38,562 nucleotides of DNA from Acidimicrobiales bacterium (GTDB lineage: Bacteria > Actinomycetota > Acidimicrobiia > Acidimicrobiales > Aldehydirespiratoraceae). Both the position numbers and the translations under genes were made by a program. The notes under the pieces were generated by a model that worked only from the letters and a program-made list of their open reading frames with translations, did not search any database and was not told where the DNA came from. The stretch covers positions 1 to 38,562 of the forward strand of contig JAQWLJ010000050.1 of assembly GCA_029247365.1 (NCBI GenBank). Direction: 5' to 3'. Shown piece by piece: positions 27,652 through 29,714 of the stretch (within the stretch, counting starts at the first letter, position 1; each line of letters starts with the position of its first letter).

Positions 27652-28482
27652 TCAGCGCTCGAAGCGGGCGCGGATCGCTGGGTTGGTGACGAAAACAGGT
27701 AGGTCGCGGGCGTCGAGCGCGCGCCGACTCGGGCCTCCGTCGACGTCGAGTGTCTGACCGGTGATGTACGACGCCAGGTTGCTGAGCAGAAACACGCATG
27801 CGTCGGCGATGTCGGTCGGCCGACCGCGACGGCCGAGGGTGATCGCCTCTGCCAGCGGATCGTCGGGGTCATCGACGGGGCGGCCCGAGCGGGGTGTGTT
27901 CACCGTGCCCGGGGCGACGTTATTGACCCGGATGCCGTGACGCCCCCATTCCATCGCCATCGTGCGGGTCAGTGAATCGAGTCCTGCCTTTGCGGCGCCG
28001 TACCCGGCGAGGAGCGGCTGGCCCTTCGATGCGATCGACGAGATGTTGACCATCGACCCGGGTTCCCCTCGTTCGATGAGGCGGCTGGCAACCGTCTGCC
28101 CAACCACGAACGCATAGCGGAGGTTGGTGGTCAGGAGGTGGTCGAACGAATCAATCGGGTACTCCTCGAGTCGGTGCCAATGATCGACGGCGACGCCACC
28201 GACGACGTTGACGACGAGGTCGATCGGCGCCGTCGTGTCGGCGGCCTCGATCGTGGAGCGCAGTCGCTCGAGGTCGGCTACGTCGACAACGTGGCCGCTG
28301 GCCTGGCGCCCTCGGTTGCGGACGTCAGCTACCGTCGCCTCGACATCGGCCGCCACGGCGCTGATTGTGACGATGTCGGCCCCCGCGTCGGCGAGTCGAT
28401 GGCACACGGCACTGCCGATGCCGCCACCACCACCGCCGACGACCAGCGCAGTCTGGTTCGCGAATGAGATCTCGATCGACAT
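27652..28482 (-). CDS. short-chain dehydrogenase/reductase (SDR)
   Basis: 276 residues, classical SDR. Cofactor motif TALVVGGGGGGIG at the N-terminus (Thr of the usual TGxxxGIG changed to Val-Gly), NVVGG, catalytic Ser in MVNISSIAS, YGAAK with the Tyr-Lys pair, and a C-terminal TGQTLDVDGG. The NAD(P)-dependent substrate cannot be assigned. The open frame extends to 28776, but the ATG at 28482 begins a standard SDR N-terminus, and further upstream lies the promoter region with an SOS box on the other side. Convergent with the MBL gene (13-bp gap). Confidence 0.9.
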   Translation of the reverse strand: MSIEISFANQTALVVGGGGGGIGSAVCHRLADAGADIVTISAVAADVEATVADVRNRGRQASGHVVDVADLERLRSTIEAADTTAPIDLVVNVVGGVAVDHWHRLEEYPIDSFDHLLTTNLRYAFVVGQTVASRLIERGEPGSMVNISSIASKGQPLLAGYGAAKAGLDSLTRTMAMEWGRHGIRVNNVAPGTVNTPRSGRPVDDPDDPLAEAITLGRRGRPTDIADACVFLLSNLASYITGQTLDVDGGPSRRALDARDLPVFVTNPAIRARFER

Positions 28483-28502: not shown

Positions 28503-28530
28503 TTGGTAAAGCGAACGTATGTTCGATACA
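28503..28530 (+). promoter_or_regulatory. predicted SOS (LexA) box within a promoter
   Basis: CGAACGTATGTTCG at 28512-28525 is a perfect CGAAC-N4-GTTCG palindrome, the LexA-binding consensus of actinobacteria and close to that of Bacillus. It fills the spacer of a possible promoter: -35 TTGGTA (28503-28508), 16-bp spacer, -10 GATACA (28525-28530). This points right, toward the 69-residue gene whose ATG is 13 bp further on. The box is also about 30 bp upstream of the SDR start on the other strand, so either or both genes could be damage-inducible. Confidence 0.7.
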
Positions 28531-28542
28531 GTCGAGTAGATT

Positions 28543-28752
28543 ATGAACTTCGACGGCGACCACGAGATCGAACACTTCCGGCGCTCCCTGGCCATGCTCC
28601 CGGCCGGTGCTGACGCGCTCAAGCGAGAGGAGGCAATGTCGCTGCTTGGCCGACTCCGCGATGCCACAGCGCGGCTTCGCCGCGTCGAATCGAGTCTCGA
28701 AGCGTTGCTCAATGCTGAACTGCGGCTCGGTGATCCTCGAAGCGAGCCGTGA
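28543..28752 (+). CDS. small helical protein behind a predicted SOS box
   Basis: 69 residues. I do not recognise a family. The sequence is dominated by amphipathic helix: EHFRRSLAMLPAG, then KREEAMSLLGRLRDATARL and RRVESSLEALLNAEL, many of them Arg/Glu/Leu heptad-like, suggesting a helical hairpin or coiled coil and a cytosolic location. There are no cysteines or membrane segments. The start ATG at 28543 has only a weak GAG upstream. The upstream promoter carries a perfect LexA-type site, so a role in the DNA damage response (for example a checkpoint or regulator peptide) is an inference. The 3' end overlaps the convergent hydrolase gene by 44 bp, which lowers confidence that it is real, but codon use is consistent. 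Confidence 0.6.
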   Translation: MNFDGDHEIEHFRRSLAMLPAGADALKREEAMSLLGRLRDATARLRRVESSLEALLNAELRLGDPRSEP

Positions 28753-29410
28753 GCCAGGCCGGCACGATCTCCTCAAGTTCGTCGGCCGCTTCAGCCATCA
28801 GGTGGTCGGTGTCGGGAAACGTCCGCACCTCGCCGTGCCCCGCAAGAGCCTGCACCATCATCGAGTTTTCCGGGCCAAGGATCGAGTCGCGTTCGCCGTG
28901 CAGCAACAGCAGCGGCACGTCGCCCATCCGGCCAGCCTCCTCACACCCTGCTGACTGGGTCGCGAACGTCACCACACCGGCGGTCTGAACCGGGAACGTG
29001 CCCGCGCCCTGGACCGCTACTGCACCGCCGAACGAATGGCCGAGCAGAGCGAACCGCTCAGCGCCATTTCGCAGCGCAAGGTCGGTCGCCGCACACACGT
29101 CGAGTAAGCAACGGCTCAGGTCGCCCGGTTTGCGGTAGCCCACGATCATCGCGGCCCGGCCGTCGGCCGCCAGTCGCTTGCCCAGGGTGGGGTACAGGGC
29201 CCGACCCGGCCCAGTCAGCCCACCCATCGCACCGCCGCCCATGATGGCGACGTCGGTCGCTCCCGGTAAGCCAAACCACCAGACCTGAAGCAGTCCTTCC
29301 ATGGTGTAGATCTCCACCAGTCGGTTTGTTTCATCCAACTCGGCGTCGGTCTTCGCGAGTGCGCCGAGCATCTCGAGCGGACTGCGTGCGGGACTGGTCT
29401 CGTCGGCCAC
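28709..29410 (-). CDS. alpha/beta hydrolase (dienelactone hydrolase-like)
   Basis: 233 residues. The nucleophile elbow is GHSFGG (LLGHSFGGAVA), the acid is likely Asp in HGERDSILG and the catalytic His in DTDHLM, so the triad is complete. The glycine-rich GGGAMGG loop near residue 60 can serve as the oxyanion loop. Substrate unknown; carboxylesterase or lipase-like activity is possible. The start is either GTG 29410 or the TTG directly before it. The 3' end overlaps the small gene on the other strand. Confidence 0.82.
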   Translation of the reverse strand: MADETSPARSPLEMLGALAKTDAELDETNRLVEIYTMEGLLQVWWFGLPGATDVAIMGGGAMGGLTGPGRALYPTLGKRLAADGRAAMIVGYRKPGDLSRCLLDVCAATDLALRNGAERFALLGHSFGGAVAVQGAGTFPVQTAGVVTFATQSAGCEEAGRMGDVPLLLLHGERDSILGPENSMMVQALAGHGEVRTFPDTDHLMAEAADELEEIVPAWLTARFEDHRAAVQH

Positions 29411-29460
29411 CAATCCATCGTCTCACGGGGTCTGGCCCCGGGTAGCATTGCGGTCCGCTG

Positions 29461-29535
29461 GCGCCGGTGCCCGAGCGGCCTAAGGGAACGGCCTGCAAAG
29501 CCGTACAGTCGCGGGTTCAAATCCCGCCCGGCGCT
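29461..29535 (+). tRNA. tRNA-Cys (anticodon GCA)
   Basis: Cloverleaf: acceptor GCGCCGG pairs fully with CCGGCGC and the discriminator is T (U73), the identity base for tRNA-Cys. The anticodon stem ACGGC/GCCGT encloses CTGCAAA, giving anticodon GCA at 29494-29496. The T arm is GCGGG-TTCAAAT-CCCGC. The 3' CCA is not encoded. Confidence 0.96.
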
Positions 29536-29543
29536 CGTCAGTG

Positions 29544-29579
29544 GACCGGTCCGCCTTCCGGCGGGCCGGTCGCCGTTTT
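29544..29579 (+). terminator. intrinsic terminator after tRNA-Cys
   Basis: A 12-bp stem (29544-29555 with 29560-29571, one G-T pair) with a TTCC loop is followed by GCCGTTTT. It begins 9 nt after the tRNA-Cys 3' end. The T-run is short, so termination may be partial. Confidence 0.7.
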
Positions 29580-29637
29580 CCGGCACCCGTATCGGCTGCG
29601 TCGTTTCTGGTGGGCGCTGCTACTATTTCGGTCTCTG

Positions 29638-29714
29638 GGGCCGTTAGCTCAGTTGGTTAGAGCGCCTGCTCGACACGCAGGAGGTCACAAGTTCGACTCT
29701 TGTACGGCCCACCA
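29638..29714 (+). tRNA. tRNA-Val (anticodon GAC), with encoded CCA
   Basis: Acceptor GGGCCGT pairs fully with ACGGCCC; D arm GCTC/GAGC; anticodon stem CCTGC/GCAGG around the loop TCGACAC, giving anticodon GAC; T arm ACAAG-TTCGACT-CTTGT; discriminator A followed by genomic CCA. Unusual: the loop base before the anticodon is C instead of the near-universal U33. The chorismate mutase gene starts 17 bp downstream, so both may share a transcript. Confidence 0.93.

Follow-up and report, generated by a model that had tools for sequence, protein, structure and literature searches.

The window, i.e. the whole 38,562-nucleotide stretch of Acidimicrobiales DNA analysed here (contig C68 of genome G000), contains on its forward strand the motif CGAACGTATGTTCG (28512..28525), flanked by promoter-like hexamers and followed after 17 nt by a 69-codon ORF (28543-28752). 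The order by direct reading is TTGGTA (−35-like, 28503..28508), AAG, CGAACGTATGTTCG, a single A, TACAGT (−10-like, 28527..28532, immediately 3' of the box), 10 nt, and ATG, with an 18-bp spacer between the hexamers. The ORF encodes 69 aa, starting with the ATG at 28543 and with a stop codon ending at 28752. The spacing between the −10-like element and the ATG suggests that the mRNA leader would be at most a few nt long. Upstream lies a divergent SDR gene (27652..28482, reverse strand, 276 aa, Pfam adh_short_C2 at 2.9e-49), a neighbour outside the conserved unit. Downstream, a convergent alpha/beta hydrolase-like ORF (28709..29413, reverse strand) overlaps the 3' end of the small gene, which is therefore a one-gene unit here. 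Beyond this neighbour, tRNA-Cys and tRNA-Val genes are found on the forward strand (29461-29714).

Probable LexA operators in the genome and upstream of homologs

The window alone gives the box no significance. With at most one mismatch, the motif occurs there four times against 2.88 expected, a number reached in 30 of 100 shuffles; the case rests on comparison. A second exact CGAACN4GTTCG (2193-2206), located within an ORF that we take to resemble a GntR-type regulator, is probably there by chance. In the whole genome, the exact motif occurs 20 times and the reversed pattern 6 times. In 17 stretches read around the 18 genomic sites outside the window, 8 sites stand at DNA-damage genes. Two of these precede lexA (L085), and there is one each at recA (L086), uvrA (L079), imuA'-imuB (L092), dnaE2 (L093), a DEDD-exonuclease/UvrC-like gene (L082) and a pcrA/uvrD-like helicase gene (L094), the exact starts of the last two being unsettled. 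One further site is upstream of mraZ (L087). As in the known actinobacterial LexA regulon, core targets in this genome are thus lexA, recA, imuA'-imuB, dnaE2 and uvrA, and CGAACN4GTTCG matches the LexA consensus tCGAAC-N4-GNNCGa of Streptomyces venezuelae (PMC9380542). Because the motif stands at lexA and repair genes and agrees with this consensus, it very probably serves as the genome's LexA operator. The operator form seen at lexA also sits in the promoter of the small gene, exactly and between TTGGTA and TACAGT, which bears out the LexA box proposed at this position by the sequence-only reading.

That reading had named lack of the box in relatives as one ground for refutation, but the box is conserved. 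When homologs were found by protein alone, GAACN4GTTC was present upstream at 65 of 76 homologous loci, a figure in which some sister-genome pairs (e.g. L029/L030) are counted separately. In the first set, 43 of 44 loci (all but L040) have the box no more than 150 nt before the start codon, and at 41 it takes the full form CGAACN4GTTCG. Among 14 loci of the second set with a recognisable core, 10 have it (not L140, L127, L129 and L135), as do 12 of 18 new loci in the third set, 10 with the full form (not L197-L200, L202 and L203). By comparison, 107,131 bp of DNA flanking the 44 loci contain one loose and no exact site. At 25 of these 44 loci (L035 onwards), the start codon was chosen with the box in view; measured from the profile start instead, the box is ≤120 nt away in all but L040, which has none, and L057, in which it is further away. 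Boxed members occur in 15 families of the order (f1, f10, f16, f18, f19, f25, f27, f28, f29, f30, f32, f44, f45, f55 and f59) and in one family outside it, f97, listed only as same phylum.

The 76 are retrieved loci, and some weak profile matches are not among them. The third set consisted of 20 fetched stretches including two repeats, L204 (of L053, at a contig edge) and L205 (of L066). Also outside the 76 are same-locus repeats (L005, L006, L008-L014, L041-L047, L052 and L098-L126), L007/L020 (a separate boxed locus with a protein equal to that of L021), L053/L204 at the contig edge, L061 (which lacks the first helix and has no box over the 81 nt covered), L097/L165 (viral contig, box present), and stretches judged non-members (L037, L039, L072-L078, L128 and L130-L132).

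The eleven unboxed loci comprise a second copy (L040), L140, five damaged or decayed loci, of which L127, L129 and L135 look decayed or truncated and L202 and L203 broken or partial, and the diverged f59 loci L197-L200. Related proteins can therefore exist unboxed. The f59 variant at L197-L200, EILRRSIAMxxPGxxVTVSxRLTREEALxMLDGYL, has no LexA box within 200 nt. Separately, the f30 loci L130, L131 and L132 encode a weakly related hairpin beside a CPYC zinc-ribbon-like stretch, without a LexA box.

Promoter elements around the box are also recognisable. Over 43 boxed loci, the TAnnnT element that follows it has the first T in 32, the A in 25 and the last T in 29, and in the window's family 10 of 18 loci have TTG within 10 nt before the box. 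In L015, L035, L049, L051 and L054, the start codon is only 4-6 nt past the box, and a TTGnnn-17-TATGTT promoter would place the −10 element inside it. LexA would block the promoter under either arrangement. Taking genome and homologs together, the small gene is almost certainly under LexA control.

The small protein and its distribution

As shown by comparison of homologs, the small ORF is a conserved coding gene. It is under purifying selection, with dN/dS of about 0.04-0.25 in pairs with computable dS (e.g. 0.097/0.45, 0.12/0.58 and 0.135/2.5; dS is saturated in several pairs), and differences by codon position also indicate a selected protein. Across 38 sequences, R13, S15, M18, L19 and R28 are invariant and E10, R14, A17, E29 and L38 nearly so; the predicted fold is built around RRSxAMLPPGxxALxREEAL. 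The window protein has a mass of 7.8 kDa and a pI of 5.6, and its homologs are about 50-75 residues long. AlphaFold2 models of the window protein (helices 4-17 and 25-62, mean pLDDT 84.7, pTM 0.62) and of an f18 member (helices 10-21 and 32-49, mean pLDDT 82.2, pTM 0.42) make a soluble helical hairpin likely. The length of the second helix varies, from long in the family to which the window belongs to short in many members of f18. The function is thus expected to reside in the core, and the conserved face E-x-x-R-R-S-x-A-M-L-P-P-G-x-x-A-L-x-R-E most likely serves to bind another protein.

The expectation of a small helical protein of unknown family was upheld by database searches as well as by the predicted hairpin. 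Against Pfam, the window protein has nothing over the curated cut-off (best DUF6231, E 0.26, 12.3 bits against a cut-off of 35) and, against NCBIfam, no match. The 38 members likewise have no curated match (best Pfam E 0.014, best NCBIfam E 0.022), and their best PHROG match has E 0.0038, with none below E 0.003. A Foldseek structure search gave 41 matches (best E 1.6) with no convincing PDB relative, and the best E in a PDB sequence search was 0.15. A fusion to a large SOS protein was considered and rejected, since none to a known SOS protein was recognised when weak matches in frames of 1119 and 1120 codons (G351 = L127, G323 = L128) were read.

Searches with the protein alone matched 24 of 100 genomes of relatives (E 0.01, a few doubtful) and 51 of 397 genomes (E 0.01), and a wider profile matched 57 of 395 genomes of the order at E 1e-4, a few of these being false or diverged. 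In a phylum-wide draw of 396 genomes, the first profile matched 9 at E 0.01. The wider profile matched 2 at E 0.001, the window's own genome and G512; this narrow distribution and the lack of a curated family set the protein apart from the known actinobacterial LexA regulon. No gene neighbour recurs across families in 25 loci listed, as judged by eye; neighbours differ between families, and gene context therefore gives no partner. Judged by these comparisons of sequence, the small protein is a new LexA-controlled family. Neither this family nor a LexA regulon of Acidimicrobiales was found described in the accessible literature searched, PMC9380542, PMC11791113, PMC6511836 and PMC3765255 included.

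Proposed role and its alternatives

The explanation that we consider rather probable as a whole is that of a stand-alone SOS gene. LexA bound at 28512-28525, between the promoter hexamers, would block transcription; DNA damage would lead to LexA cleavage and free the promoter; and the resulting mRNA, leaderless or nearly so, would then yield the 7.8-kDa soluble helical-hairpin protein. The protein may tune the induced repair/translesion machinery (ImuA'-ImuB-DnaE2, or RecA) rather than septation, and its action on the mutasome is a conjecture that we hold only tentatively.

Co-occurrence is compatible with an earlier idea of a polymerase regulator. ImuA' is over the cut-off in 44 of 45 carriers of the small gene against 37 of 49 non-carriers (Fisher p 0.0015, pooled), i.e. 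35/35 against 27/35 in one set and 9/10 against 10/14 in the window's family. The one carrier that lacks it is a draft genome of 81% completeness. Two non-carriers, G020 and G038, have a partial ImuA' match, read as a fragment (p 0.006 if both count as present). Of the 12 non-carriers in which ImuA' does not reach the cut-off, 9 belong to the window's family f1. DnaE2 is over the cut-off in 34 of 35 carriers, with a contig-edge fragment in G265, against 30 of 35 non-carriers (Fisher p 0.027, fragment counted). The small gene shares its operator with the mutasome genes, and nearly all tested carriers have ImuA' and DnaE2. On the other hand, it is patchy over the order (57 of 395 genomes matched), it lies outside the imuA'-imuB operon, and the 37 non-carriers above have ImuA' without it. 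Because the genomes are related and hand-picked, the test is confounded by kinship and co-occurrence is a lead only. Profile comparison showed no similarity to ImuB or to the RecA N terminus: hhalign gave 0.15% against 10 ImuB sequences, the frames of which were chosen by BLAST against the genome's own ImuB (10/10). Mimicry of the RecA N terminus, to whose motif the core bears a faint likeness, was rejected, as hhalign gave a probability of 1.35% to five RecA N termini (its own and 4 of 10 stretches where a pattern found the motif) and aligned them outside the motif.

A role as division inhibitor had also been raised from the sequence. In the form of a cytosolic, SulA-like protein that delays septation until DNA is repaired, this idea has weakened to an unlikely one. 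Small SOS proteins with family-specific sequences, such as SosA, are often division inhibitors. Like SulA, YneA, SosA, SidA and DivS/ChiZ, as these are generally described, the small gene is LexA-controlled, single and lineage-specific in sequence. YneA, SosA, SidA and DivS have a membrane segment, whereas the small protein has none (best 19-residue hydropathy 0.33), nor does it have a LysM match among the Pfam searches or a sequence link to these inhibitors. The place divergent to lexA is held by DivS/Rv2719c in other actinobacteria. Here it is occupied by a separate ORF (L085:917-1555, reverse strand) that adjoins the two lexA boxes, matches LysM in part and has an apparent membrane segment. 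This ORF is a candidate DivS/ChiZ-type division suppressor, so the role of division inhibitor may already be taken. The LexA motif upstream of mraZ, the first gene of the division cluster, speaks for a link between division and SOS. Of 16 readable loci (4 of 20 being unreadable by pattern), 11 have a perfect box 117-242 nt before mraZ, including 10 of 11 from genera g1, g7, g8 and g10 of the window's family; loci with such a box are L087 (G000:C31), L170, L171, L173-L176, L178-L181 and L183. This suggests SOS control of the division/cell-wall cluster in the group, and division may thus be tied to SOS.

Equally doubtful is a small DinI- or RecX-like protein that modulates RecA or the cleavage of LexA and so feeds back on the SOS response. 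Small size, hairpin fold and a one-gene unit would suit such a modulator, and all 35 carriers tested have LexA; however, LexA is nearly as common in non-carriers (34/35), and neither sequence nor profile comparison ties the protein to known families or to the RecA N-terminal motif. That the gene is cargo of a mobile element or phage exploiting host LexA is improbable. The patchy distribution over the order, the occurrence of at least two copies in some few genomes, and an IMG/VR contig (L097, classed as viral) in which a homolog carries its own LexA box would fit it; this was the only related viral contig. Against it, the window protein gave nothing better than E 6 among 50,697 phage records or E 8 among 72,556 plasmid records, and in the window's family the neighbouring genes are often kept, namely that of the hydrolase and two that we read as MBL-fold-like and chorismate-mutase-like.

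Least tenable, and already refuted as a general explanation, is that the box serves the divergent SDR gene, whose start codon (28482) is about 30 bp away, and that the small ORF is incidental. That ORF is under purifying selection, and box and ORF persist in families with other neighbours and at loci where tblastn found no SDR ortholog in the DNA covered (L005/L017, L018, L024, L026, L027, L028 and L034). In some genomes of g1 and g8, an SDR ortholog with 67-80% identity lies next to the small gene. Co-regulation of SDR had been suggested; its place as part of the unit is not supported, given the boxes kept at same-family loci in which no SDR was found, and yet SDR could still respond to LexA where present.

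Returning to the stand-alone SOS gene, we favour, tentatively, a soluble protein acting as an adaptor in repair or translesion synthesis, since a division role is disfavoured by the absence of a membrane segment and by the divergent LysM-domain ORF next to lexA. More speculatively, the protein might be a further soluble actinobacterial mutasome component or a RecA/mutasome adaptor, LexA-switched across Acidimicrobiales, of a family overlooked because its members have about 50-75 residues and almost no mRNA leader.

In other phyla, SOS genes of no known function have opened the way to mutagenic polymerases and division checkpoints. Genetics is scarce in the present group, for which the gene described here offers a small testable target, the regulation, boundaries and conserved surface of which have been set from sequence. 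Because many families of the order have retained its switch, the small protein is very probably a real, uncharacterised part of the DNA-damage response of Acidimicrobiales.
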